The translations under genes were made by a program, and so were the position numbers. This document shows, one piece after another, positions 2,616-50,100 of a stretch of DNA of 52,555 nt. Source of the DNA: a virus; the IMG/VR virus record IMGVR_UViG_3300036712_000029, positions 1-52,555 of that record; one strand, given 5' to 3'. Below the pieces are notes generated by a model. It worked only from the letters and a program-made list of their open reading frames with translations, searched no databases and was not told where the DNA came from. Positions within the stretch are counted from its first letter, which is position 1, and the number at the start of each line of letters is the position of its first letter.

Positions 2616-2992
2616 TGGGGGACGAACACATCTGCAACGCCGGCGTGACCAAGCTGGAGGTCTTGCCGACTGGCGACATCATCCCCTGTCCAGCGTGCAA
2701 GGATGCGGCGAGAGACCACCCAGAGGTGTTCATCCTGGGCAACATCCGGGACACCACCTTGAAAGAGGCCCTCAAGCGAGGGAGGAAGATCCCGTATCTG
2801 CGCAAGTTCCGCAGGTGGAATCGGTGGGGCATGAAGTGGCGTTCCCACCTGGCTGGTTGTGAGATCTGCGCACAACCGGACGGCGCCTGTACAGAAGGTC
2901 TCAGGATCCTCCTACGAACGGACGAAGCGAGAAACCAGTTCCTGGACGAGAAGGAGAAGCTATATGGGACACACCACCAACAAGAGGGCTGA
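2615..2992 (+). CDS. Stand-alone SPASM-like iron-sulfur domain protein
   Basis: A 125-residue protein translationally coupled to the radical SAM gene. From residue 7 it shows C-x12-G-x4-C (CNAG through GDIIPC), the first half of the SPASM consensus, then FILGNIRDTTLKEAL, a typical SPASM phrase. The end shows C-x2-C-x6-C (CEICAQPDGAC). The final CX3C and last Cys of a full SPASM are missing, so it may bind fewer auxiliary clusters. SPASM domains normally sit at the C-terminus of a radical SAM enzyme; a separate polypeptide is unusual. It may act with the upstream protein (inference). Confidence 0.72.
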   Translation: MGDEHICNAGVTKLEVLPTGDIIPCPACKDAARDHPEVFILGNIRDTTLKEALKRGRKIPYLRKFRRWNRWGMKWRSHLAGCEICAQPDGACTEGLRILLRTDEARNQFLDEKEKLYGTHHQQEG

Positions 2993-4784
2993 CAGCAACC
3001 TGGGAGTCAAACACCAGGTACTTGATCACGGCTTCGTCTGCCTGGTCGACTACATGGGTGGGGACCAGCGCATCGCCGAGGCGGCTTGGGTTTCCAGCAT
3101 CGACGAGGTCGAGGCGGAGAAGAAGACCAAGAAGGGGATCAAGCGGATCATCAACTACATGATGGCCAACCGCCATTGCTACCACCCCACAATGCAGGTC
3201 CTGACGATCAAGGGCTGGAAGCAGTGGGACGAGTGCGAGGGGGAGGAGGTTTTCCTGGTACCAGACCCGAAGAACCGGACCCTCAAACGTGAGCTGCTTC
3301 AGCTCGAGGTATTCGACGCGGATGAGGAGATGATTGCCTACGAGAACCAGAGGATGTCCTTTTGCGTGACTGATGACCATCGGATGTGGTTCAGGCCCCG
3401 TGGACAGTCCGAGTTCGACATCTTCAGAGCGCACAACATGTCGAAGTGGGGTCACTTCGATCCTCTGAAGGGCTATCACTGGGTGCAGTTTGACACGAAG
3501 ACTGACCCGAAGATGCAGTTCATCGGCTTCTACCTGGGGGATGGGAGCTACGGCAGCCTGAATACGATCACTTTCCACATCCGGAAGGAGCGGAAGAAAG
3601 TCTATCTCAGGGATCTGCTCAAGAAGGTGGAGGCGAAGTGGGATGAACGACAATCTTCCACCTACTCGGACGCGGTCGTCTTCACCATCAGGACCCCCGA
3701 ATGGATGAAGGGGTACATCGACGTCACCCTCCGCGCGAAGGACAAGAACTTCCCTCTGGATACTGTCCATCTGCTGGACCACGGAGAGGTCATCGGGCTG
3801 TACGACGGCCTGATCAATTCGGATGGTTCGGAGAAAGATGACCGGCCGCAGACGCAGTTCTCCAGTTCCTCTGAGAAGCTCCTCGATCTGTTTGAGGTGC
3901 TTTCCGCTCTGCTGGGGACGGACGCTCACCGGACATCGATTGGGTCCACCGCTTATCACGGTGAGCGTACGTCTCTGGAGGCGAGGAAGGAGTACTTCAG
4001 CAAGAGGTACTACAAGGGCAAGGTCTACTGTGCTACCAGCTCCACTGGGCTGCTGATGGTGCGTGGCGGAGCGGACAAGTTCGCCTTCGTCTGTGGGAAC
4101 ACGAGCCCATTCGAGCAGGTGGAGCTGGTGTTTCGGGCGCGCATGCCCATCTTCGTGGCCCGCCAGTGGGTGCGCCACCGCACGGCCTCGCTCAACGAGA
4201 TGAGCGGACGCTACCGCCTTCTCCCGAGTGAGAGCTACGTGCCCGGCTACGGGCGCATGGGTGGCAAGGGCAAGAGCAACAAGCAGGGCACCGAGGGCGG
4301 CCTCGAGATCGAGCTGAAGGAGTTGATCCAGAAGCGGTTCGAGGAGGGTCAGCGGGTGGCCTGGGACGACTACGCCTGGCTCGCCGACACTGGCCTGGCC
4401 AACGAGCTCGCCCGGCTCAACCTCCCGCTTGCTGCCTACACGGAGTGGTTCTGGAAGATCGATCTGCACAACTTCTTCCACTTCTGCGGCCTGCGCCTCC
4501 ACCCCCACGCCCAGTGGGAGATCAGGCAGTACGCCAACAAGATGTACGAGCTGGCCAAGGACGTGGCTCCGATGGCCTTCAAGGCGTTCGAGGAGCACCG
4601 TCTCTACGCCGCCACGCTCTCCAACAAGGAGCGCCACGCGGTGTGGTCTATCTTGAACGGCGTGCGCGGTGCCATGCGTGGTGAGACGGAGCCCGCGGCA
4701 GCGATCGACAGCGAGCTGCTTGACCAAATCATCAAGAAGCTGTCTACGCTCCCTCAGCTCGAAAGGACGATCGTCGATGGGTGA
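2964..4784 (+). CDS. thyX: FAD-dependent thymidylate synthase ThyX, interrupted by an intein
   Basis: Makes dTMP from dUMP using FAD and methylene-folate. ATG 2964 was chosen because AAGGAG lies 7 bases upstream; earlier in-frame starts overlap the previous gene with unrelated sequence. The N-extein ends in NYMMANRH and the C-extein resumes with TSPFEQVEL, which together rebuild the ThyX H-x-S-P-F-E motif. The signature RHRTASLNEMSGR follows. Removing the 308-residue insert leaves 298 residues, a normal ThyX size. The start overlaps the SPASM-like gene by 29 bases and the stop overlaps the next gene. Confidence 0.93.
   Translation: MGHTTNKRADSNLGVKHQVLDHGFVCLVDYMGGDQRIAEAAWVSSIDEVEAEKKTKKGIKRIINYMMANRHCYHPTMQVLTIKGWKQWDECEGEEVFLVPDPKNRTLKRELLQLEVFDADEEMIAYENQRMSFCVTDDHRMWFRPRGQSEFDIFRAHNMSKWGHFDPLKGYHWVQFDTKTDPKMQFIGFYLGDGSYGSLNTITFHIRKERKKVYLRDLLKKVEAKWDERQSSTYSDAVVFTIRTPEWMKGYIDVTLRAKDKNFPLDTVHLLDHGEVIGLYDGLINSDGSEKDDRPQTQFSSSSEKLLDLFEVLSALLGTDAHRTSIGSTAYHGERTSLEARKEYFSKRYYKGKVYCATSSTGLLMVRGGADKFAFVCGNTSPFEQVELVFRARMPIFVARQWVRHRTASLNEMSGRYRLLPSESYVPGYGRMGGKGKSNKQGTEGGLEIELKELIQKRFEEGQRVAWDDYAWLADTGLANELARLNLPLAAYTEWFWKIDLHNFFHFCGLRLHPHAQWEIRQYANKMYELAKDVAPMAFKAFEEHRLYAATLSNKERHAVWSILNGVRGAMRGETEPAAAIDSELLDQIIKKLSTLPQLERTIVDG
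3177..4100 (+). other. Intein with LAGLIDADG homing endonuclease inside ThyX
   Basis: 308 codons, in frame. It begins with Cys (CYHPTMQVL, block A), has T-x-x-H in block B (VTDDHRMW), and ends KVYCATSST...FAFVCGN followed by Thr at +1. The penultimate residue is Gly instead of the usual His, which occurs in some phage inteins. Two endonuclease helices are visible: FIGFYLGDGSYG near residue 112 and GLYDGLINSDGS near residue 206, both keeping the acidic residue. The insert should therefore be able both to splice and to home. It splits the flavin/substrate motif of ThyX, so activity depends on splicing. Confidence 0.92.
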
Positions 4785-14536: not shown

Positions 14537-14841
14537 CTAGTACATCACCATGGAGGATCGAGGCTGTGACCGTCGATCCGATCACAGACGAGATCGTGGA
14601 CTGGCTGGTGTCAAACCCAGGCCCAACGATGCGTGGTTGGCTGGGGTCGAAGTTCCCTCCCGGGGTACGGTCCCGCCCGATGCCCGAGCTACGGGTCACC
14701 TACATCAAGACCGGGCACGGCCGAAGGGCCCAGATCATCAAGGACGACAGACGCTACCGAGCACGCTACAGAGGGGAGTTGATGACTCTGGAGGCAGCTA
14801 CTAAGATGATGAAGGAGGACCTCACACATGGCCGAGAGTAA
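14533..14841 (+). CDS. Hypothetical protein, 102 aa
   Basis: ATGA-coupled to the previous gene. Contains DEIVDWLVSNPGPTMRGWLG, an HTH-like pair of helices, then a basic segment (YIKTGHGRRAQIIKDDRRYRARY). A nucleic-acid-binding role is possible. Overlaps the large patchwork ORF by 14 bases. Confidence 0.6.
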   Translation: MTSTSPWRIEAVTVDPITDEIVDWLVSNPGPTMRGWLGSKFPPGVRSRPMPELRVTYIKTGHGRRAQIIKDDRRYRARYRGELMTLEAATKMMKEDLTHGRE

Positions 14842-17425
14842 GACAAAGAGGTGGGTCCCTGGAAAGCTGAGCTTCAACGACATCTGGGTGGACCCGCCCC
14901 AGTTCCCAAGTCACATCTTCGACGGCAGCCTCAAGGACGTCTCGATGGGCTGCAAGGTGCCCGAGACCAAGTGTCCGCTCTGCGAGGCTGGCTACGAGCC
15001 GAAGGACACCCCGATCATCAACACCGACTTCGCCCAGCTCGAGCTGAGGATCGTGGCCCAGCGCATGGCGGAGCAGGGATTCAAGCTCGAGTCACCGCAG
15101 GGCCGCACCCTCATCCCGATGCCGATGATGCACACCCACGACGACGCCGTGTATCAAGTGCCAGAGGAGGGCGACAGGATCGTAGGCATCGACTTCGGTG
15201 ATGACGGTAGGACCGTCCTGGTGATGGGTGTCGTCAAGAGGAGCGGTGAGCCGGACGCCAACGGGGACGTATTCATCCTCGAGGACATGAAGTTCTTGCC
15301 GCCAGGGCAGAGCCCGCCCACCACCAAGGCAGATCTGGAGAGGGAGCCGATGCAGGTCATGAACAAGACTGCCCAGCGCATCAAGGCAATGACCGACCAG
15401 TACATCAAGACCTACCAGGGAGATCCCCACCACGTCTCCCAGGTCGACGAGCAGAGGTTCGCCAACGAGTACCTCTGCCAACCCCTGGACCCGGGGGACG
15501 AGCCAGGACCCATGAAGATCCCCAAGCTGGATGAGCACTCGCCGATCGAGAAGATCAGGTGGGTATTGGAGGGGATCTCGGAGAGGCTGAACTGGCTCGC
15601 CACGTCCGAGAACGCCCCCAAGCTGATCGAGGTGAAGGAGCTGTCTCGGGAGCAGTACACACTATACCGGGCGCAGCAGCGTGTGGAGGCGCTGCTGCAC
15701 CAGAAGGAGGCCGAAATGAACATTGATCAACTGGCAGGCCTCTACGCCAGCGATGACGACGAGGGGGACCTTCCCGAGAAGGTCTACTGCCCTCGCTGCG
15801 ACGCCCCCATGGTGCTCCATGAGGCCGGTCGGGGACTCATGGAGGGGCACGAGTTCTACGGCTGCAGCAACTACCCCCACTGTGATGCCACCAGGACCAT
15901 CAACGAGGTGAAGGAGGAGTGGCCCAAGCAGTGGAAGGTGGTGGTGAGCATAGTGAACGGTGAGCAGCAGAGCCGCCTCCAGTTCGGCGTCTTCTACGGG
16001 TGGCGCTGGCAGCCGCTGATGGGGAAGCGGTTCCACAAGACCAAGATCTCCGGTGGGCACATCTTCCACGACTTCATCGAGCCTGCAGCCAGAGCCGTCG
16101 GCTGCAACTTCTTCACGATGACACGGTCTCTACTGGAGGCGCTGGGGACCAAGAACGCGGGCGTGGTGGCCAAGCGGATGGTCCGGACCATCGGCGCCAT
16201 CGACCCCATCCACGCCGTGGACGACATCATGCTGGACAGGGTGCTGAAGGACTCCAAGATCGTGCAGGAGTTCTTGGGCATCAAGCCCGAGCGTGAGCTG
16301 TTCAGGGTGTGCGTGGAGCGGCGCAACTACAAGAAGAACGGCGAGGACGTCCTGCAGCTGCGGGCCAAGGACCGCAAGGGCCAGACCATCAAGACCTCCC
16401 AGATGCCCTGGGAGCACGTGGACGACACCTACGCGACCGAGGCGCTCATCGAGGAGTTCTGCCACGCCGTGGCGGCCGAGCTCACCCTGGGCAGTGGCGA
16501 TCTGGCTGGTGCTCAGCAGGTGTTGACCTGCCTGCGGGAGAGCACGGAGCGGGTGAAGGTCACTAGCCACACGTTCAAGCACGCCGTGCAGGCTATCCAC
16601 CAGGTGGCCATGGCCATGAGCTTCGGCACGAAGCGGGGGTCCGATCGGACCCCCCAGGACATCAACAAGCCCCTCAAGCACGGCCCCCTCACCTCCGTCG
16701 TCCTGTCCGTGGGTCACCCCTGTACAGAGCGGAAGAACCGGGAGATCGAGCTGATGGCGTGTGGATCGCACGCCAAGGACTACTTCCAGGTGTCGGTGGA
16801 GTCGGTGGAGCTGACCCTGGAGCGGGCGAAGCAGTTCATCATCAACTTCGCGCAGAAGACCGCTGCCAAGTTCAAGGTAGCGGCCACGAGGGTGGTGGAG
16901 CTGGTGGAGGACCGGGTCAAGCGGTCGTCTGACGTCCTGCTCCTGGGTGAGCAGAAGCTACTCGAGCAGGCCTGCAGGGAGATCTTGGGGACCGACGAGC
17001 CCACGTTCTCCGAGAAGTCTGCCCGGGCCTGGTCCCCGGACACCAAGCGGTTCATCGAGGAGCAGAAGCGCCTGGCGCCCCAGAAGGAGAAGGAGCGCCA
17101 GGAGCGGATCCACAAGGCTCAGGAGGACGCGCGGAAACTGGCCAACAAGGCCAAGATCTACAAGGCCGGGTATTGCAAGAAGTGCGACAAGACGGGCTGC
17201 ATGTGCCCCCGTCCGTTCGATCCCTTCGCTCCGGAGAACCACCCTCTGCACTCCTGCAAGGACGGGATTCATGTCCGCCTGCAGGACGTACCCAACCACA
17301 TGATGGCTGAGCTGGATCTGGACGAGGGTCAGTGGGAGATCTGCCTCGACTGCTTCGAGCTGCACTGTGACGGTGTGCCCACTGGCCGTAGGGTCTCCAC
17401 TCTCGATGCCCCGCAGGACTCATAG
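14828..17425 (+). CDS. 865-aa patchwork protein of enzyme-like fragments
   Basis: One uninterrupted frame with a strong ribosome site (AAGGAGG). Fragments in order: 37-45 DVSMGCKVP plus CPLC, as in the prohead protease of this window; 65-80 NTDFAQLELRIVAQRM, family A DNA polymerase motif A; 98-114 with THDDAVYQVP, polymerase motif C, only about 20 residues later, so motif B is missing; 118-129 VGIDFGDDGRT; 207-220 QRFANEYLCQPL, terminase-like; 318-356 a topoisomerase-type zinc ribbon (CPRC...CSNYPHC); 783-794 CKKCDKTGCMC. The rest (365-780) is mixed helical sequence. No fragment could be active alone. It may be an in-frame fusion of gene pieces or a protein with a new role. Confidence 0.7.
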   Translation: MAESKTKRWVPGKLSFNDIWVDPPQFPSHIFDGSLKDVSMGCKVPETKCPLCEAGYEPKDTPIINTDFAQLELRIVAQRMAEQGFKLESPQGRTLIPMPMMHTHDDAVYQVPEEGDRIVGIDFGDDGRTVLVMGVVKRSGEPDANGDVFILEDMKFLPPGQSPPTTKADLEREPMQVMNKTAQRIKAMTDQYIKTYQGDPHHVSQVDEQRFANEYLCQPLDPGDEPGPMKIPKLDEHSPIEKIRWVLEGISERLNWLATSENAPKLIEVKELSREQYTLYRAQQRVEALLHQKEAEMNIDQLAGLYASDDDEGDLPEKVYCPRCDAPMVLHEAGRGLMEGHEFYGCSNYPHCDATRTINEVKEEWPKQWKVVVSIVNGEQQSRLQFGVFYGWRWQPLMGKRFHKTKISGGHIFHDFIEPAARAVGCNFFTMTRSLLEALGTKNAGVVAKRMVRTIGAIDPIHAVDDIMLDRVLKDSKIVQEFLGIKPERELFRVCVERRNYKKNGEDVLQLRAKDRKGQTIKTSQMPWEHVDDTYATEALIEEFCHAVAAELTLGSGDLAGAQQVLTCLRESTERVKVTSHTFKHAVQAIHQVAMAMSFGTKRGSDRTPQDINKPLKHGPLTSVVLSVGHPCTERKNREIELMACGSHAKDYFQVSVESVELTLERAKQFIINFAQKTAAKFKVAATRVVELVEDRVKRSSDVLLLGEQKLLEQACREILGTDEPTFSEKSARAWSPDTKRFIEEQKRLAPQKEKERQERIHKAQEDARKLANKAKIYKAGYCKKCDKTGCMCPRPFDPFAPENHPLHSCKDGIHVRLQDVPNHMMAELDLDEGQWEICLDCFELHCDGVPTGRRVSTLDAPQDS

Positions 17426-17618
17426 ACCGGCACCGGAAGAAGCTCAGGAGGATATCAAGCGGAGACTAAGCATCTACGTCCCTCCTGATATGCTCGCCTT
17501 CCTCGAGCGTGAGGCCAAGAGGATGGGCGTTCCATACCCGTCTGATATTGTACGTGCCCTCATCACGGCGTACTATGAGAAGCGCAGTATGGGACTGCTG
17601 ATCGACCCCGATGACTAA
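17406..17618 (+). CDS. Ribbon-helix-helix protein, 70 aa
   Basis: ATG 17406 overlaps the end of the patchwork ORF by 20 bases. Pattern: KRRLSIYVPPDMLAFLEREAKRMG, then YPSDIVRALITAYYEKR, a strand followed by two helices as in Arc/MetJ/CopG DNA-binding dimers. Such proteins usually repress their own or nearby promoters. Overlaps the next gene by 8 bases. Confidence 0.8.
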   Translation: MPRRTHRPAPEEAQEDIKRRLSIYVPPDMLAFLEREAKRMGVPYPSDIVRALITAYYEKRSMGLLIDPDD

Positions 17619-18108
17619 CTGTGTGTTCTGCGGCGGACAGCACGACAACACCGACTGCCCGATGTTTGGGAAGACGGATGCCTACCTCAACGCCTTCGCA
17701 CCGAAGGCGTTCCCCCTACCAGAAGAGCCATCGCGCTCTTCTTTACCCCCCACGCAGTTCGAGGAACTGTTCGGCGCCGAGCCGGGACTCCTTGCTGACG
17801 TAGCGGATGGACCTCCTGAGTACTGGACTCCAGAGCAGCAGGCTCTGGCCCTGAAGATCTTGGCTGGCGAGTCAGACCTCCGTCCCGCAAACAACGAAGA
17901 CCGTCGTATTCTCGATGGGATAGCGGAACAGATGGCCACGCTAAAGGACCCACGTGGCAAGCCGCCTGCTACACTGCCGACGCCGATCTATCGGCCACCG
18001 GGTGTCCACACCCAGGCAGAGATGGAGAACTTCGAGGAGGAGTACCAGCCACCGGTAGCGAAGCGCGACTGGCCACTCTCACCAGATCATCCTGAAGGGG
18101 AACAGTAG
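17611..18108 (+). CDS. Zinc-knuckle protein, 165 aa
   Basis: Begins NCVFCGGQHDNTDCP, a C-x2-C-x4-H-x4-C zinc knuckle as in retroviral Gag and some phage proteins. The rest is proline-rich and acidic with little predicted structure (FEELFGAEPG, PEQQALALKILAGES). Last plus-strand gene before the convergent terminator. RNA or DNA binding is an inference from the knuckle. Confidence 0.75.
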   Translation: MTNCVFCGGQHDNTDCPMFGKTDAYLNAFAPKAFPLPEEPSRSSLPPTQFEELFGAEPGLLADVADGPPEYWTPEQQALALKILAGESDLRPANNEDRRILDGIAEQMATLKDPRGKPPATLPTPIYRPPGVHTQAEMENFEEEYQPPVAKRDWPLSPDHPEGEQ

Positions 18109-23508: not shown

Positions 23509-24381
23509 CTAATCGACTTTGTGCTCGTCCACAATCGGAACCGAACTGGATCCCGGCCCCGTTGGGGTTGCAGTGTTGATCACCCGACCCCGGATTCGCG
23601 GAGGCCGAAGGACGTTGGATCTGGCAGCCTTCTGGCTGGCCTGGGTCTGTCCCGCTGCCTCTCCCCACAGCATCGAGGGGTCGCGGTCCTGCGTGTGTGT
23701 CAGGTTCGGTTGTGCCAGGCCCATCCGTGTCCGCAGCCGCACAGACATGTGCTGCAGAGTGTAGATAGGACGGCGGTTCCAGTCCTCTTTCAGTGGAGTG
23801 ACCGAGTCAGTCCACTGCAGGAAGAACGGCACGGAGACGGGCACGTTGTGCCACTCGCCCTCTGTGTCTCCCTGAACGAGCTGACCTGCCGGAGTCACCG
23901 CCCCGATCGTGATGTTCCTTCCGACCTCGTGAATGTGCGTCTCTTTGATGAAGATCTTCCGGAGATTCCAGATGGTTCTGGCGCTCTGCCAGCCCAGGAA
24001 CCTGCACTCCTGCCGGACACGGGAGAGGCAGTTGAGCGTCATCGTGCCAGGGATCAGATCTGTGTGGATCTCCTTCGCGTTGGTGAGATCCACATTCACC
24101 AAGTCGTCAAGAGATGAACCATTGAAGCGTGCCGGGCCGAGGACGACGGAGATAGCCGGCCGCTGCTCGGTGGCCTCGAGGTTCACCGGGTTCTCTTCGG
24201 TGATCACCAGCTCGGTCTCCTCGATGGCCGCCGCCCAGTGGAAGCACCCCCTCGGTGCTTCCTCCCAGATCGTCTGGAGGAAAGCGATGAAGCCCTTCAC
24301 CAGGTAGTTCAGGGGATCGTTGAGCCAGCTCGACTCAAGCTCCTCTGCGGCGTGGACTGTGCTACTTGGCGTTTCGCTCAT
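23509..24381 (-). CDS. Tail-completion-like protein
   Basis: 290 residues upstream of the sheath gene. Helical N-terminus (LNDPLNYLVKGFIAFLQTIWEE), then a beta domain with repeated strands (ISVVLGPARF, TMTLNCLSRV), and a proline-rich C-terminus that looks disordered. Sheath-adjacent genes of this size often encode tail terminators or neck proteins; this is from position only. Start overlaps the previous gene end. Confidence 0.6.
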   Translation of the reverse strand: MSETPSSTVHAAEELESSWLNDPLNYLVKGFIAFLQTIWEEAPRGCFHWAAAIEETELVITEENPVNLEATEQRPAISVVLGPARFNGSSLDDLVNVDLTNAKEIHTDLIPGTMTLNCLSRVRQECRFLGWQSARTIWNLRKIFIKETHIHEVGRNITIGAVTPAGQLVQGDTEGEWHNVPVSVPFFLQWTDSVTPLKEDWNRRPIYTLQHMSVRLRTRMGLAQPNLTHTQDRDPSMLWGEAAGQTQASQKAARSNVLRPPRIRGRVINTATPTGPGSSSVPIVDEHKVD

Positions 24382-24703
24382 CGCCCTTCTCTACGTACTT
24401 GTCGGCCTTCCTGCGCAACTTCGACGCGGCCAACACGCCTGCCCCGCCGACGATCGTCGCCGCTGCGGGGCTGTACTTCTTCACTCGCTCCTGCCACTTG
24501 GGGCTCAACTTCCGGAGATGCTTCATACCCGGCCCTCGGACGTACCGGCGAACCAGCTTGCCCGTACCGTAGCCGAGCCCGGCACCTGCCCCAACCGTTG
24601 CCAGGGTCTTGAGGTGCCGTTTGAGCTTCTCCTTGGTGATCCACCGCTCTTTCTCCTCGGCGATCTTCTCCAGTTCGTCGTAGAAGGCTGGAAGGCTAAT
24701 CAT
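24362..24703 (-). CDS. Small tagged glycine-zipper protein, 113 aa
   Basis: ATG 24703, chosen because it lies right after the previous stop (24696-24698). It opens with ISLPAFYDELEKIAEEKERW, a clear N-terminal copy of the operon-wide ELEKIA motif. Two glycine-zipper stretches follow (TVGAGAGLGYGTGKL; AATIVGGAGVLAASKL) with basic flanks, as in membrane-inserting phage proteins. Function unknown. Confidence 0.6.
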   Translation of the reverse strand: MISLPAFYDELEKIAEEKERWITKEKLKRHLKTLATVGAGAGLGYGTGKLVRRYVRGPGMKHLRKLSPKWQERVKKYSPAAATIVGGAGVLAASKLRRKADKYVEKGDERNAK

Positions 24704-25607
24704 TTCCGTACCCATAGACCGCGAAAGCATGTTTGATCGCCTCTGATTCAAACCCTTCCAGGTTCTGCGGGTTGGTGAAGTTCCTTCCAGGACTTGGCTC
24801 AAAGTCTCGCAGATCTTCTATCCGTATGGGAAGCTGGAATTCGATGTCACCCTTGATGATCTCGTGAAGCACCAGCTCCTGGTGGACAACACTGCGTAGC
24901 CGCTCCGTGGTAGAAACCTTGACTACCCTCCACCTCCTGTTCTCAGTTTCGACAATTATATCCCGCGGCTTCAGCAGTGGGAAGTTCGGCAAGCGCGCCG
25001 TGGTGTCCACCTGCTGACGCTCCGTGATGGGAATCGCCTGAACCGACTTCGGACTCGGGTCGATCTGGATGAAGATCTCGATGGGATCGAAGTACCCACG
25101 GGCGAAGCCGGTGTCGAAGCAGGTGAGGCAGTGCGACCGCCGACGCTGAGAGGTGAATCCCTTGCCCTTGTCCGGGCCGTCGTAGCAGTTGCCGCACCGC
25201 TGACCGAACGTCCTCGCCGGGAAGATGAAGCAGCGCCGGCCTGCGAACTCCTCCCAGACCAGGCGCTCGAGCCGTTGGATCTCGATGGCGATCAGGTCCG
25301 GCTCGGCGTGGAAGGTGAAGGCCGCGCTCTCCACCACGTTGGTGGTGTCCGCCTTCTCCACGCTGTTGATCTTGTAGTAGAGCTGCCGCCAGCGGTGCAG
25401 GAGGTTCACCCTGTTGTCCACGAACCTGTAGCGGTCCTCGAACGGCCCGGCCATCAGATCCCACGGTCCCATCGGAGACTCGCTCCGGTAGACGTAGAAG
25501 CTGTAGTCGTGCGGGTCGAGGGACGTGTCCTCGATCTCCCAGAGGACCTCGAGGAAGTCCAAGGAGAAGGAACGCACCAACAGGTTCTTGAACGCCAGGT
25601 CCGCCAT
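24696..25607 (-). CDS. Neck/baseplate-like protein with FN3-like domain and zinc knuckle
   Basis: 303 residues. Residues about 10-95 look like a fibronectin type III domain (FLEVLWEIED, YSFYVYRSESPMGPW, LYYKINSVE). A middle segment has CGNC and HCLTC about 22 residues apart, a possible zinc site. The C-terminal half is beta (DIIVETENRRWRVVKVS). Location among tail-neck genes favours a structural role. No specific family called. Confidence 0.65.
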   Translation of the reverse strand: MADLAFKNLLVRSFSLDFLEVLWEIEDTSLDPHDYSFYVYRSESPMGPWDLMAGPFEDRYRFVDNRVNLLHRWRQLYYKINSVEKADTTNVVESAAFTFHAEPDLIAIEIQRLERLVWEEFAGRRCFIFPARTFGQRCGNCYDGPDKGKGFTSQRRRSHCLTCFDTGFARGYFDPIEIFIQIDPSPKSVQAIPITERQQVDTTARLPNFPLLKPRDIIVETENRRWRVVKVSTTERLRSVVHQELVLHEIIKGDIEFQLPIRIEDLRDFEPSPGRNFTNPQNLEGFESEAIKHAFAVYGYGND

Positions 25608-25614
25608 CTTGGGA

Positions 25615-26355
25615 TTAGATCGTCTTCCCCATCGCCGAGACGAGCTTCTTGCGGGAGCGACCGGGAGCGCCCTTGCCGGCCTTCATGGCACCGGCCATCG
25701 CCTTGGCCTTGGCCTTGGCCATGGGGGTGGTGAATTCGTCCTCCTTCTCCATCCCCTCTTCCTCACCGTACTGGCTCATCTTCTTGCACGCCGCGGTGAT
25801 CTGCAGGGCAGCCACCTTGGCCGCGGCCTGCTTGACGTGGGGAGGAGCACCGGACGTCGCACGCAGAGCACGCTGGGCGATCTTGGCCTTCACCGCCGCC
25901 GTCTTCATGGACTGGATGCTCTCCTGTGCGGCCTGGGTCGCCTGGACCTGGCGATCGTACCAGTCAGGGGTTGCTGCGGCCTGCTTGGCGAAGATGCGAC
26001 CGATGTGATCGGCCCACGCTATGGCCTCCTTGGTCGTCGGTACCTTGCCGGGACCCTGGTGGCTCACGGCCGTGGGCTCGGCCTCTTGCTGGCGCGTCGG
26101 CGGCGTGTCGGTCCGGCTCTTGGCCGCGATCTCCTCCACCGTCTTCATCTGCGCGTCCAGCTCGTTCCCGGGGAGCGAGTCCGGCATCGGGGGCTCGACC
26201 GGGCCAGCGACGGCCACCTTGGTGAAGTCCACGCTGTCTAGCCCCAGAAGGCCCTCGAGCTCCTCCACCGACAAGCTGCCCATGAAGTTGTCCAGCTCGG
26301 CAGCGGAGGTCTTCTCCATCTCGTCCTCGTACATCTTGGTCAGAAAGTCGTCCAT
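25615..26355 (-). CDS. Tagged alanine-rich virion-cluster protein
   Basis: 246 residues. Opens MDDFLTKMYEDEMEKTSAAEL, a copy of the shared EMEKT motif near the N-terminus. The middle is proline-rich and disordered; from about residue 118 it is alanine/lysine-rich helix (AVKAKIAQRALRATSG, AKAKAKAMAGAMKAGKGA) ending basic. DNA or lipid contact is conceivable. No family recognised. Confidence 0.65.
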   Translation of the reverse strand: MDDFLTKMYEDEMEKTSAAELDNFMGSLSVEELEGLLGLDSVDFTKVAVAGPVEPPMPDSLPGNELDAQMKTVEEIAAKSRTDTPPTRQQEAEPTAVSHQGPGKVPTTKEAIAWADHIGRIFAKQAAATPDWYDRQVQATQAAQESIQSMKTAAVKAKIAQRALRATSGAPPHVKQAAAKVAALQITAACKKMSQYGEEEGMEKEDEFTTPMAKAKAKAMAGAMKAGKGAPGRSRKKLVSAMGKTI

Positions 26356-29185: not shown

Positions 29186-29410
29186 CTACCCCCACGGAGT
29201 CATGCGTGCTTTCGCAACACCCTTTGCGCCGCCGCCCTCACGCGCCACCTCGCTGCGCGCCGTCTGACCCACGTTCCGGAGCCCCTGGGCCAGCCGCTTG
29301 CGCAGTGGCCCGGCACCCGGAGCGATGTTGGTCAGCAGCATCTTGCGGACGATGCCGCCGCCGATCTTCTCCAGCTCGTCGTGCATGGCAGCCAGTTGGA
29401 CCGGGTTCAT
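29186..29410 (-). CDS. Small tagged basic protein, 74 aa
   Basis: Opens NPVQLAAMHDELEKIGGGIVRKM, an N-terminal copy of the ELEKIG motif, then a basic region (GPLRKRLAQGLRNVG) and a Gly/Ala-rich end. Overlaps the HhH gene by 4 bases (ATGA-like). Probably a minor virion protein. Confidence 0.55.
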   Translation of the reverse strand: MNPVQLAAMHDELEKIGGGIVRKMLLTNIAPGAGPLRKRLAQGLRNVGQTARSEVAREGGGAKGVAKARMTPWG

Positions 29411-34053: not shown

Positions 34054-34893
34054 CTACTCGTTCCACTCCACCGGCCAACCGGCGGCTTCCAGCATCTGGA
34101 GCGCGAGGTTGTCCACCTCGTACCCCAGCTGGCCCGCGAGCTTCTCCTGCTCGTAGCCCTCTGGGATCTCGAGGTACCCGGACTCCATCAGCATCTCGTA
34201 GGCCCTGGCCTCGGCCAGCTTCTCGAGCGCCGACGCGTTCTTCTCCTTCTTCTTGCCCTTCAGGGCCCTGTAGGCCGCGTACCCGCCGCCGGCGAGGGCC
34301 AGGGGGATCCCCACCCGCTTGCCGAACCGCTTCGCCCCACCCTTCAGGGCCTCGACGCCCGCCTTGCCGCTGGGGAAGGCCTTGAGGCTGCGCTTGGCGT
34401 GGCCTGCGGCGGTCTCGGCCGCCTGCATCCCCTTGGCCTTGCGGACATCCTTCAGGCCCTCGATCATCTGGCTGACGCCGGTAGCCTTGCCAGCCGCGCT
34501 GGCGCCGCGCTGGACCGCCCCCTTGGCCCTGCGGTAGCCCAGGCGGGCCTTGCTGATCTGCGGACCCATCTCCTCGGCGGCTTCCTTCTCGATGTTGTTG
34601 AGCTCCTGGACCATGGAGTGGGCCATGACACGCCCCAGGAAGTCCGCCTCGGCGAACTTCTCCTGACCCTCCTCGTCCAGCTCCTCCTCGGCTTCGGCGG
34701 TGTGCTCGATGCCGTCCCCGCTGTAGAGCTCGTTGATCATGCCCTCCACGTCCTCATCGGAGAACTGGGAGAGGTCGACACCCTCCTCCTCGGCCAGCTT
34801 CACCAGAAGCTCCGCGGCGGCGGTCTTCTCCAGATCGTCCTCCTCGTACTCGACCTGGCCGGTCCCGTAGATTGCAGCGAGCTGCTTGTCCAT
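34054..34893 (-). CDS. Tagged head-cluster protein with glycine-zipper
   Basis: 279 residues, AAGGAG site. An acidic N-terminal region contains DLEKTAAAE and later NIEKEAAEE and ALEKLAEAR. A basic middle (KGAVQRGASAAGKATG) precedes a glycine-zipper (GIPLALAGGGYAAYRALKG). Situated just after the prohead protease, as internal core or scaffold proteins are in T4-type phages. Tag copies could be protease sites. Confidence 0.65.
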   Translation of the reverse strand: MDKQLAAIYGTGQVEYEEDDLEKTAAAELLVKLAEEEGVDLSQFSDEDVEGMINELYSGDGIEHTAEAEEELDEEGQEKFAEADFLGRVMAHSMVQELNNIEKEAAEEMGPQISKARLGYRRAKGAVQRGASAAGKATGVSQMIEGLKDVRKAKGMQAAETAAGHAKRSLKAFPSGKAGVEALKGGAKRFGKRVGIPLALAGGGYAAYRALKGKKKEKNASALEKLAEARAYEMLMESGYLEIPEGYEQEKLAGQLGYEVDNLALQMLEAAGWPVEWNE

Positions 34894-34982: not shown

Positions 34983-36977
34983 CTAAAGCAGTTGGCCAAC
35001 CCCTTGTTTCAGTCCTTCTTTCAGGGATGCCCCACCACCTTTGACTGCGTCCACGACACCGCGGACGAGCCGCCTGGGAATCTGAGATCCTTGTTGATGA
35101 AGAGCGCCCATCCCAGCCATCACCATGAGCGTTTTGGGATTCTCGGCCGCCAGGTTTATCAACGCCCCTGTTGGTCCTCGTGCTCCCATCATCGCTCGTC
35201 TCTGTTGGTGCGCCGCCCAACGACTCAGCGCGAAGGCTCCGCCTACTGCGCCTAGGACCACAGCTGGGTTGACCCCAGCAGCGGTCTTTTCAAAGCCGTC
35301 CGCAAGTCCTGATCTGTGGACTGTTTCCCACAGATCAGGATCCGCATCCACAATGGCTCCTGCATCTACTAGACAATCTCCGATCCGATCTAGGTAGCCA
35401 TTATAAGCTGCCGAGATCTTCTGTAGGAAGGGGGTTTCTTCAGCTTCTTTCCCCTCCCCGTCATCAGCCTTTGGCGCCCCACAGATCGTGATGCGGACCA
35501 CCCTACGTCTTGCGATGGGCTCCAGCATGCTACGGTCTTCCATCATCGGCAAGAGGAGACGCTTCAGCATGGAACTGAAGTGCCCCGATCCCAGGGGGAT
35601 CGAGGTGTCAGACTCGTCCGTGGGAGGGATCACCTCCCCATCTCGATCGAGCTGGTCTGCCAGTGGTTTCTTGCCGAGCCGGATGATGGTGATCCTCTGG
35701 AACTCGCGGGGCTTGAGGATCATCCCCATCGTCGTGGGCGTGGAGAGTGCCTCGCTGAGGTCGCCCTTGCCCAGTTGATCGAGGACTTCATCCGGCAAAT
35801 CTGGTCTGTTGTCTTCCAGGGGCACGGCCTTGCTGCCAAACTGAGACGGCTTGACATCCTTTATAATCTCCGCGCCCTTGCGCTGGGAAGCCTTTTTCTC
35901 CCGGAGCCGATCGCGCACGATGTCGATGGCCGACCGCTTCTCCTTCCCCTGAGACCCGCTGTGGAGGCTGGCGATCCTCTTGCCGGTGAGCAGCTCGCTC
36001 CAAACCTCGCGGACTTTCTTCCGGCCGGGGTGGCTGGTGCTCCACAAGCTGGGCACTGCTGCTGCCTTCTCGAACGACTTCTCTGTGCTCGGCTGCTCGT
36101 AGCCCATCTCTTCCGCCACCAACCAGGAGGGGATCGTGACATATTTTCGACCCCCAGTATGCGCCATAGCCAACTTTGCCATGACCTTTGCGGTCTTGTC
36201 AGCACCGATGAAAACAAAAGAGATGTCGAAGAACCTGGGGTAGTCGTTGATCGCGTAGATCTTCGTCCCGTCCGCCAGGATCTTGTTGAGCATACCCTTG
36301 AGATGCTCGCAGTAGTCGTTCCGGGTGACGGAGAGCCCACGGATGGGGTTCTTCTTGTGGAACTCCAGGACTGCGACGCCTACCGACCGATGCCGGCTCG
36401 GGTCGAAAGTGGCCTGGGCCTGTCGGTACTTCTTCCAGTCCAGGCACTTGGAGCAGAGGTCATAGGGGACCTTGCAGCCCATGCTCACGTCGGGAAACAG
36501 GCCGTGGTCCAGCTTGTCGCACACGTCGGTGGCCCCGAACATCTCTGCCCGCTTGCGGTCGATCATGACCACCAGCTCGACGCGCTTCATGGCGTCGTTC
36601 CAGGCAGCCAGCTCGACCTTGCCGAAGGCCTTGCTTGGGTCCTTGTTGACGTGGTGCTTGTAGGGGAAGGCTCCGTAGAAGGTCTCGTATCCGTAGACCG
36701 GACCCTTGTGGATCAAAGAAGCTTCCGGGAAGTAGTCCCCGTTGATGTTCGAGCCCCAGAACTCACCAGCTCCCAGGGCGTTGACGAGGACGTAGATCCT
36801 TTGGGAATCGGGCTTCAGCTTGTCGAGGTATGCCTGGACCTGCGGGAGCATGGGCGCTGCTGTCTTGCCCATGGAGAAGAACTCGGCGGCCTTCTCCATC
36901 TCACCCGGCTGGAAGATCTCCACCAGGCGTTCGCCCTGCTCACGTCGGGCTTTGAACTGGCATACCTTGACGATCAT
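34983..36977 (-). CDS. Prohead protease with C-terminal extension
   Basis: 664 residues. The N-terminal 250 hold the protease: GSNINGDYFPEASLIHKG, KHHVNKDPS with candidate His108/109, and DVSMGCKVP with candidate Ser165, followed by C-x-x-C. This order (His then Ser in an S-x-G motif) is that of phage prohead proteases (S78/T4 gp21 type), which cut scaffold and capsid proteins before DNA packaging. It far exceeds the usual 200-300 residues. The tail contains FEKTAAGVNPAVVLGAVGG, the operon motif plus a glycine-zipper. ATGA-coupled to the previous gene. Confidence 0.8.
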   Translation of the reverse strand: MIVKVCQFKARREQGERLVEIFQPGEMEKAAEFFSMGKTAAPMLPQVQAYLDKLKPDSQRIYVLVNALGAGEFWGSNINGDYFPEASLIHKGPVYGYETFYGAFPYKHHVNKDPSKAFGKVELAAWNDAMKRVELVVMIDRKRAEMFGATDVCDKLDHGLFPDVSMGCKVPYDLCSKCLDWKKYRQAQATFDPSRHRSVGVAVLEFHKKNPIRGLSVTRNDYCEHLKGMLNKILADGTKIYAINDYPRFFDISFVFIGADKTAKVMAKLAMAHTGGRKYVTIPSWLVAEEMGYEQPSTEKSFEKAAAVPSLWSTSHPGRKKVREVWSELLTGKRIASLHSGSQGKEKRSAIDIVRDRLREKKASQRKGAEIIKDVKPSQFGSKAVPLEDNRPDLPDEVLDQLGKGDLSEALSTPTTMGMILKPREFQRITIIRLGKKPLADQLDRDGEVIPPTDESDTSIPLGSGHFSSMLKRLLLPMMEDRSMLEPIARRRVVRITICGAPKADDGEGKEAEETPFLQKISAAYNGYLDRIGDCLVDAGAIVDADPDLWETVHRSGLADGFEKTAAGVNPAVVLGAVGGAFALSRWAAHQQRRAMMGARGPTGALINLAAENPKTLMVMAGMGALHQQGSQIPRRLVRGVVDAVKGGGASLKEGLKQGVGQLL

Positions 36978-37465
36978 AGCTTGAAGGGATTCTCACTGTC
37001 CGGTCGGAAGGTATCGACCTTGGTCGGCCGGAATGCCTCGGAGATGGGACCCCTGCCAGCCTTGCCCTGGGTGATGTTCCTCTGGGTCTCGGCCAGCAGC
37101 TTGGCGGACTGGAGAGGGACGGCCGGACCAGACTCCGGCGACATCTCCAGCGTGTTCCGGACGTACGACCCGGCGATGAGTGGGTCTGCCGCCAGAGAGG
37201 GTGCGGTCTTCCTCAGCGAGTTGTAGACCATCTGGACCGAGCTGGCGTCGTGGTCCCGCAGCATGGGATTCGCCTTCAACATGTTGGAGTAGTCCCGCAC
37301 CCTGGTGAACCGCTCCTTGACCATGCCGATGCCCTTGCTGGCGGCGACACCCATCGCGGAGATACCAGCGGACGCGATGGCTCCAGGCAGAGCCTCCTTG
37401 ACGGCTCTGCCCATGGCGTCGAGCCAGCCCGCCTCCTTCAGGAACTCGTCGACTGGATTGCTCAT
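36974..37465 (-). CDS. Small tagged protein, 163 aa
   Basis: ATG 37465 overlaps the upstream stop (TGATG). Opens SNPVDEFLKEAGWLDAMG, similar to the shared FLKEAG motif, then an alanine/glycine-rich hydrophobic segment (GAIASAGISAMGVAASKGIGM). The C-terminal half is helical and ends disordered. Likely virion-associated. Confidence 0.65.
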   Translation of the reverse strand: MSNPVDEFLKEAGWLDAMGRAVKEALPGAIASAGISAMGVAASKGIGMVKERFTRVRDYSNMLKANPMLRDHDASSVQMVYNSLRKTAPSLAADPLIAGSYVRNTLEMSPESGPAVPLQSAKLLAETQRNITQGKAGRGPISEAFRPTKVDTFRPDSENPFKL

Positions 37466-37764
37466 CAGTACCCTCGCTGCGCCTTCTTCATCGCCCGGCG
37501 CTGTTTCCAGACGTGATACTTCATCCGAGCCCGCTGGACAGGCTCGGACTCCCAGCCCTTCTTCGCCCCGTAGGCCACCGCCAGATGCGGGGCGACCCTG
37601 GCGGCCAGGGCCAGGTTCTTGTGCCCACGGCTGGCCATGAACTCGGCGGCCCCTTTGCCGGCCCGATCGATGGACCGCACGATGTCCCCGGCTGTGCCCA
37701 GGACACCGCCGTGCTTCTCCAGATCCTGTCGGAGTAGATAGAACGCAGAGGCGAGCTCGATCAT
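37465..37764 (-). CDS. Small tagged basic protein, 99 aa
   Basis: Opens MIELASAFYLLRQDLEKHGGVLG, a copy of the LEKxG motif. Mostly helical with a basic, aromatic C-terminus (RARMKYHVWKQRRAMKKAQRG). Coupled on both sides. Confidence 0.6.
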   Translation of the reverse strand: MIELASAFYLLRQDLEKHGGVLGTAGDIVRSIDRAGKGAAEFMASRGHKNLALAARVAPHLAVAYGAKKGWESEPVQRARMKYHVWKQRRAMKKAQRGY

Positions 37765-47151: not shown

Positions 47152-50100
47152 TCAGTACTCCCCGGGCTTGGCGCCCCGACCTATCTCCGCCCCGTACACC
47201 ACGGGTGGGATTGGGTGTTTGCCGTGCAGCTTGGTAGTAAATCCCTGCTGGGCAGCGTCGATCACCGTCTGCCCGATCCGCTGGTGGTTCATGCGGGCGA
47301 TCCAGTCCTCCTGCATGTCCAGCGGCAGCATGTTGACTCCCTTCAGAACCGGCCGATGCACGATCGGCCTCTTCCCATTGCCCTTCCGGTTCAGATTAGC
47401 AACATGAGAGGTCGGTGCGAAGTCTCCCCGGATGAAATCCTTGTGATCACCAGGATCTTCCACCTTGGTGAGGTTCGTCAAGGCCTTGACCACCACCTCG
47501 GAGTTCCGTCGACGGATACCGTGCGGGGAGTAGATCTTGTGCAACTCTCCGGTGATGTACCCCTGCACCGGCTCCACCCCCGTCAGGGGCAGCATCTCGT
47601 GTGGGTTCACGGGACCGCCAGAGATGGCCGCCCCCTTCTTCACCTCCATACCCCTGCGGAGCTGGCGCCCAGCTATCGTTGGGACCCCACGATTCTGTGG
47701 GACATAGTGCCGCTTGCCCCCGATGAAGACGTTGTGTCCACCGGCTGGATCCTTCTGGACCTTGTCCACCTTTCCGCTCACTGTACTGAGGGTAGCAGCA
47801 CCACGCAACGTCTTCGGGAACAGGAGGAGATTCTTCAGCCTGCCGAACTCGTCGACGATCTCCTCCTTGCTGGCCGCCGTGCCGCCCGTGTGGAACGCCT
47901 TCATCGCCAGCTGAGCAGACCTCTCGCCCAGGGCCTGGCCGGCCAGCACACCGACGTTCAGCCCCTTCTCCGGGGGCTTGCCGTCCTCCGTCAGGCCGAA
48001 GCACTTCTTGCACAGACCAGGCCCGTGCTGGCAGCGGAGCGGCGAACGCACCAGTACCCGACCCACCTTGTTGTTGCGCAGGGAAGTCCGAACCTCGGGA
48101 GTCACCAGCGTGCCCGCCTTGAAGATCTTCCTCCCAACCTTGGTGTCCGCTGCCAGATAGCGATCTAGCACGTCCTTCTCATCGATCGACAGAGCGATGC
48201 CCTTGTCCGTACCACAGTCGTCATCGATGATGGAGTTGTCCATCACCGAATTCATCACCATCTTGGAGATGTACCCAGGCTCCTGGACCTGCTGGACCTT
48301 CTGGATGATGCCCTTGCGAGCACCGCTCATGGACGTCCAGTAGTCCGCCAGGTCAAGCCCCTCGGAGTAGGACTTCTTGACCGGGGTAGGGATCGTCTCC
48401 CCCTTGGCATTGGAGATGAGCATCGGAGCCAAGCGAATCTGCCTAAGCTGATCGGTGCCCGGCTTGATGCCAGCGTTGTTCATGACCAGCAGATTGCTCT
48501 TCCGCTCGTCCGTCGCATTCATCTTGGCATGCAGCTCGTCCGTCGCCTTGGCGTAGATCTGAACAGCTTTGGCGTCCCTCTGCTCCCTGGTCCCCTGGAG
48601 CGCCGCCACCTGCCGATCGGCCTTGGCCAACACCTGCTGTCGGAGAGCCTTGTCCGGCTTGATGTCATCCAGGCCAAGACTGAACGCTGTTTCGGTGGAC
48701 CACTTGTTCCCCAAGTCCTTCAGCTTGTTGACCACCTCGCCGTAATCGTTGCGGTGATTCTTGGCCAAGTCGGTCAAGAGTTGCTGTTGTCCTTTCTTGT
48801 CCAGCGGACCCGACCTCTGGAGGAAGTTCTTCCGCATCTCCGATGGCAGGGCTCCGGCGATCATGAACTTGCCAGTGGTATTGGACAAACCACCGACCTT
48901 GATCTGATCGTTCAAGTTCACCTGCCCCTTCCGGACAGCCGACTCCACCTCCTGCATGGTCTTGAAGCTCTTGCTGGTCTTGGCGCCCGGACGAGTCAGA
49001 CCATAGAGACCGAGCTGCGTCTCCAGCGTGGGAGCATACATCAGGCTCCCGGTAGCCGGATTGAAGAGGTTGCGAGAGGGGGCCATCTTCTTCGCCTCCT
49101 CCACGGCCTCGTTGCCTACCGGGACGAAGGCAGCCATGGTGTCGCCGTCGAAATCAGCGTTGAAGCCGGAGGTCACCAACGGGTGGATCTGTACGGCCTT
49201 GCCACTCACGATACGCGGCTTGAAGGACTGGATCCCATACTTGTGTAGCACGGGATCGCGCTTCAGGAGAACAGGGCGTTGCTCCACCACCCGCTCGAGC
49301 GCCTTGTTCACCATCTGTCCGCCCTCGCTGATCTGCTTCTGAGCCTCCAGCGGGGAGACACCTGTGAGGTTCCGCAATTCGCGAACGACGAACGGCTTGT
49401 AGAGCTCGAGCGCAGCCTTGCGGGGCAGGCCCACCTCATCCAGGCCCAACGCCGGCTCCGGGATGATGGTGGACCTCATCGAGAGGTCCTGCTTCCGCTG
49501 GACCAACTTGCTCTGGAAGAACCCTGTCTTGGGCTGACCAACTTTCTTTCCGGTGCCGCGGCCCTGCACCTTCTCCGGACGCTTCCCACCCAGGATGTCC
49601 AGGATCCCGCGGAACTCCCGGTTGGCATGACCACCCAGGCCAGTGAGAGACCTCAGTCCGTCGTAGATCTCCGACCGGACCTCGTTCTTCTCCTCGTCCG
49701 GCAGCAGGGGTGACATGTTATTCAACCTCCCGGCCGACAGGGCGATGCCCTTGTACATGCCATTGAGGTCGTCGAAGTTCAGATCTCCGTTCGGGAGCTG
49801 GGACACCGGACGCATCGAGGGCGGTAGCACCGGGACGTTCTTCATCATGTAGGCGTCCTTGGCCGTCAGCCCCGCGTTCTTCAGCGCGGACAGGTACTTC
49901 ACCTTCTTGTTGGCCCGGTCCAGGCGGTTGCCCTTCAGGCCAGGAGAGGCCAGAGCCTTCTTCGCGCTGGCCAGCTCCTTGTCCACGTCGATCTTCCCAA
50001 GCATGGCGTCGAACGCCTTACCACCAGTGAGACCCTTCTCCGTGTTGGTCGTGAAGCCACCAGTCTTGGGATCGTACGCACTCTTCCCAGCGATGATGTC

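Follow-up and report, generated by a model that had tools for sequence, protein, structure and literature searches.

We propose, as a tentative reading of the sequence comparisons below, that the gene at 14828–17425 encodes an accessory, probably early, fast-evolving multi-zinc nucleic-acid-binding protein that reuses a Cys-knuckle from a prohead protease and a fingerless palm from a DNA polymerase. The gene, P0001, has been inherited together with its neighbours. It lies in record IMGVR_UViG_3300036712_000029, a fragment of a large myovirus, all 52,555 bases of which form the window analysed here. The following features define the locus:

14828..17425, + strand: P0001, a single open frame of 865 codons, member of a three-member family
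14812..14819, + strand: ribosome-binding site AAGGAGGA, 8 bases before the P0001 ATG
14566..14841, + strand: g34, the upstream gene, overlapping the P0001 start by 14 bases; an orthologue occupies the same place in G002 and G003
17611..18108, + strand: g37, the downstream gene, with a zinc-knuckle-like N terminus; a conserved neighbour, also in G010

An earlier note on this DNA had described a single open frame with a good ribosome site, and we confirm both. The P0001 coding signal is the strongest within a plus-strand cluster that comprises ThyX together with numerous small genes of low conservation; from this location we infer that the protein is made early. The minus strand encodes the tail sheath, terminase large subunit, major head protein and a single-chain RNA polymerase (47152–52554) of the multi-subunit type, with beta and beta′ fused in one chain of at least 1800 amino acids. 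In terminase and polymerase searches, the nearest kin were IMG/VR contigs of up to 191 kb and the farther kin were Salmonella phage Arash and Vibrio phages D69, D148 and D181. Six minus-strand proteins (24362–24715, 25615–26355, 29186–29410, 34054–34893, 34983–36977 and 37465–37764) were also seen to have a common N-terminal motif resembling D-E-L/M-E-K-[IT]-A, possibly a protease-processing or assembly tag.

A search of 50 contigs holding a related terminase produced two full-length homologues, in G002 (IMGVR_UViG_3300005077_000006) and G003 (IMGVR_UViG_3300042731_004843), with 28 and 32% identity. Both are single open frames from stop to stop, of 967 and 985 codons, and the order of genes g32 to g37 around P0001 is identical in the window, G002 and G003. 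The earlier note had proposed looking for homologues with the same segment order, and these two independent contigs supply them. Mis-assembly of 14828–17425 was considered and excluded, as the same order and neighbourhood occur in these two other assemblies. The ribosome site, the coding-type sequence and the two full-length homologues in the same gene neighbourhood together indicate that P0001 is a real gene. No homologues beyond these two were found in viral and bacterial collections. The remaining contigs with a related terminase are mostly incomplete, so the lack of P0001 in them says little.

No known family in Pfam, PHROGs, NCBIfam or the PDB matched P0001 from end to end, the secure match being that to a zinc ribbon only. 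The earlier description of an ORF assembled from fragments of unrelated enzymes holds for a prohead protease piece, a family A polymerase piece and a common zinc ribbon, and fails for a terminase piece. The first of these is related to the following features:

14924..14983, + strand: prohead-protease-like segment GSLKDVSMGCKVPETKCPLC, P0001 residues 33–52, identified from profile matches and motif spacing
34983..36977, − strand: the phage's own prohead protease, of the source-like family for P0001 residues 33–52, with its motif at 36444–36503

We ran an N-terminal family profile, made from the three homologues, against 4,962 ORFs of relatives and counted the top non-family matches. Prohead proteases came first, nearly exclusively and always at the same segment; the best domain E-value was 0.0015, whereas 30 column-shuffled nulls reached no better than 0.15. 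The spacing S-M-G-x3-P-x3-C-x2-C in the P0001 family is identical to that in the prohead proteases. The six residues (S39, M40, G41, P45, C49 and C52) are invariant in the three P0001 family members, and their counterparts are kept in 33, 32, 33, 29, 32 and 32 of 33 proteases, respectively. This match beyond the nulls, together with the identical six-residue spacing, bears out the earlier proposal of a prohead-protease-like motif. We take the serine of the S-M-G motif to be the protease nucleophile.

The prohead protease of the same phage group (34983–36977; a weak match to PHROG 18299) is identical to the P0001 segment at 12 of 20 positions. However, the protease has ∼650 residues, and P0001 has the 20-residue segment without the rest: the alignment covers only HMM positions ∼62–109, the remaining protease domain being absent. 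It had been stated that the two genes share residues in this region and not codons. The residues are indeed shared, but so is much of the coding sequence, as DVSMGCKVP has 6/9 codons and 22/27 bases identical.

The second imported segment follows directly:

14987..15121, + strand: family A DNA polymerase-like segment, residues 54–98, with motif A (D67-F-x2-L-E-x-R) plus the next helix
15125..15169, + strand: motif C-like THDDAVYQVPEE, residues 100–114, with T-H-D kept in three members

When residues 60–114 were compared with the relatives' ORFs, the top four matches were the four PolA genes of the relatives, aligned at motif A, and PolA was matched by none of 60 nulls. In the PDB, 19 of the 23 matches up to an E-value of 10 fell on motif A of family A polymerases that belong to several distinct subfamilies, with single E-values for the motif A matches of 0.17–1.1. 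The match thus recurs at the same motif in Pfam/NCBIfam, the PDB and the phages' own PolA. P0001 has D67-F-A-Q-L-E-L-R, in agreement with the consensus D-[YF]-S-Q-[IL]-E-L-R, and D, F, L, E, R and A are invariant in the three members. The assignment of residues 65–80 to family A motif A in the earlier note is therefore upheld by the PolA rankings, the nulls and the PDB matches. A viral contig scan with the N-terminal alignment also gave an unrelated viral PolA (64 residues, 35% identity) with a BLAST E-value of 0.017, computed on the assumption that the database has 20 million residues; as the scan patterns included motif A, this is supporting and not independent evidence. The PolA similarity appears to extend past motif A, to about residue 95.

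Motif C, previously placed at residues 98–114, stands less firmly. P0001 has THDDAVYQVPEE compared to VHDELLFEVPEE, and phmmer of this piece puts PolA second. For the motif C H-D-E, P0001 has THDD and the homologues have THDC and THDG, so only T-H-D is common and the likeness is weak outside P0001. The motif C likeness is likely to be genuine, though weaker than that of motif A. P0001 has motif A, the next helix and a motif C-like THD in an order collinear with a family A DNA polymerase (Pfam DNA_pol_A). In contrast, P0001 lacks the fingers, motif B, thumb and exonuclease, and represents ∼60 of 600+ residues; motif A is separated from motif C by ∼20–30 residues, which leave no room for motif B and the fingers. 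As a separate observation, the PolA gene of G010 (L083:5840-8557) has a break in motif B, following IGFG; the sequence from there to the C-terminal part is non-matching and may be an intron.

It had been argued that the polymerase pieces cannot be catalytic with the fingers missing. The fingers are indeed absent, but this conclusion is too strong: other two-metal palms, among them GGDEF and other nucleotide cyclases and the archaeo-eukaryotic primases, are active in the absence of family A fingers, and the aspartates of motif A and motif C are kept here in all three very divergent members. An active fingerless mini-palm, in which both aspartates would coordinate a pair of metals for an N-terminal module that forms or cleaves a nucleotide bond in the manner of a cyclase or primase, would account for the retention of D67, the motif C aspartate and the motif A L, E, R and A, and for an A-then-C order collinear with PolA. 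We nevertheless consider it improbable, given the weak support for motif C outside P0001 and the absence of the PolA nucleotide-binding (motif B) residues. Moreover, AlphaFold2 yielded no palm at usable confidence (mean pLDDT 38 for the full length and 49 for the N terminus); three sequences were too few, and fold searches with the models were uninformative.

Convergence is a further explanation for both segments, whereby the protease and polymerase likenesses would be accidental or would have arisen by convergence on a zinc knuckle and an acidic motif, both short metal-binding patterns. Each match is short, with E-values of 0.0015 to 0.07 for the relatives' ORFs and at least 0.17 for the PDB, as this explanation would have it. 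However, convergence would have to place six protease-invariant residues at identical spacing and align the family A matches at the same motif in the PDB, Pfam/NCBIfam and the phages' own PolA, with nulls that never match PolA. We therefore regard it as quite unlikely.

Two further regions were compared with terminases:

15446..15487, + strand: terminase-like phrase of the earlier note, residues 207–220, not conserved in homologues and judged to be chance
15176..15280, + strand: conserved strand block RIVGIDFG...NGDVFIL, residues 117–151, with strong conservation

The terminase-like reading of residues 207–220 is not sustained, as there is no conservation in G002 or G003. The same columns are portal-like in G002 (three libraries, E-values of 0.016–0.05) and like nothing in G003; as the resemblance changes from member to member, the phrase is probably due to chance. 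That portal-like match, of P0002, was rejected for the same reason, the other members being without a match in these columns. No family match to a terminase large subunit ATPase or nuclease domain was found in P0001. Likeness of block 117–151 (strand 117–125) to the terminase nuclease strand was not significant, and on sequence the block could equally resemble that strand or the last strand of the PolA palm.

The remaining recognizable features are cysteine-rich:

15782..15904, + strand: topoisomerase I type zinc ribbon, residues 319–359 (Pfam Zn_ribbon_Top1, E-value 2.7e-9, above the curated cut-off)
17174..17353, + strand: C-terminal Cys cluster CKKC..GCMCPR...C...C..C, residues 783–842, family-invariant

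Both had been predicted. The P0001 ribbon passes the curated cut-off and spans nearly the whole 39-position model of the topoisomerase I C-terminal zinc ribbon (PF01396), and the C-terminal cluster is invariant across the three members. Topoisomerase zinc ribbons have a nucleic-acid-binding role. The Toprim and catalytic Tyr domains of topoisomerase I were not found in P0001 with Pfam or NCBIfam, leaving only the ribbon. The G002 and G003 homologues, but not P0001, have a small Cys motif that matches a 130–136 amino acid protein of the same phages (E-value 5e-4). The middle region of P0001 (360–740) has no recognized domain.

Among the genes that the window has in common with both G002 and G003, P0001 shows the lowest conservation. 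Most of the large shared genes have 60–90% identity: the terminase has 77–78%, the major head protein 88–90% and the RNA polymerase 74%, compared to 28–29% for P0001. Its invariant islands include both imported segments plus several that match nothing known, and the family-invariant residues are the invariants of the parents (S, M, G, P, C and C from the protease; D, L, E, R and A from motif A). Rapid change that leaves such islands fixed points to a folded protein under selection, and away from a decaying remnant. Such fast evolution can alternatively come from relaxed constraint. The rate of change suggests contact with host factors.

A slowly dying fused remnant, in which protease and polymerase pieces captured by illegitimate recombination persist without function, would be in keeping with the short pieces and low identity. 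It would also suit G010 (191 kb, terminase 67% identical), where the syntenic gap is present with only small ORFs and no P0001 counterpart. Set against this, three homologues as divergent as these are all open frames of ∼865 codons or more, numerous invariant residues are grouped in islands, and the gene adjoining the start on the upstream side is the same in all three. This makes decay very unlikely.

The segments might instead imitate essential enzymes of the group, as a decoy that occupies host defence sensors or as a dominant-negative that poisons the enzymes of competing phages or satellites. The residues that they hold are precisely those invariant in the families of two essential enzymes, and the gene is the fastest evolving shared gene and lies in an accessory region. 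However, other equally conserved islands (NGDVF, LYRxxQRVEA, FIEPxxRA, LRAKxRxGQT and CKKCxxxGCMCPR) had no match in other proteins of these phages, so mimicry leaves most of the protein unexplained. In addition, known defence sensors of terminase or portal recognize folded proteins, not peptides of 15–45 residues. Mimicry of this kind thus seems unlikely.

Likely inteins were noted in the phage group. In the window, ThyX (2964–4784) probably contains one between its N-terminal and catalytic parts (ANRH|C...LAGLIDADG-like IGFYLGDG...CGN|TSPFE). In relatives, likely inteins occur right after AGIDWG/CGLDWG in the terminases of L014, L016, L017, L038, L044, L045 and L050 and exactly at VSMG|C in the prohead proteases of L021, L047 and L056; both sites fall in conserved active-site segments. 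The idea that the P0001 segments represent intein insertion sites was rejected, the terminase homology not being significant and a PolA intein not being found. As inteins and mimics alike favour conserved active sites, we retain the coincidence as a curiosity.

In the multi-zinc nucleic-acid-binding protein that we tentatively favour, the zinc modules would bind nucleic acid, as one curated zinc-ribbon match and the Cys spacing suggest. The protease-derived knuckle and the fingerless palm would be reused as small metal-binding or nucleic-acid-binding modules, presumably with neither protease nor polymerase activity of the ordinary kind, and the protein may modulate phage or host DNA metabolism. 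A more specific proposal, which we regard as doubtful, is that P0001 is a conserved natural protein in which minimal modules from the active sites of essential enzymes of the phage itself, the protease and a fingerless family A palm, are strung on zinc ribbons, the palm being either a working two-metal site or part of a multi-target decoy.

Phage genes are mosaic at the level of whole domains. It would be unusual for 20–45 residue active-site segments of a phage's own core enzymes to be reused in a set order and maintained across long divergence. A reduced palm able to bind metals or nucleotides would amount to a fingerless family A palm, whereas P0001 as a decoy would represent a new counter-defence format.
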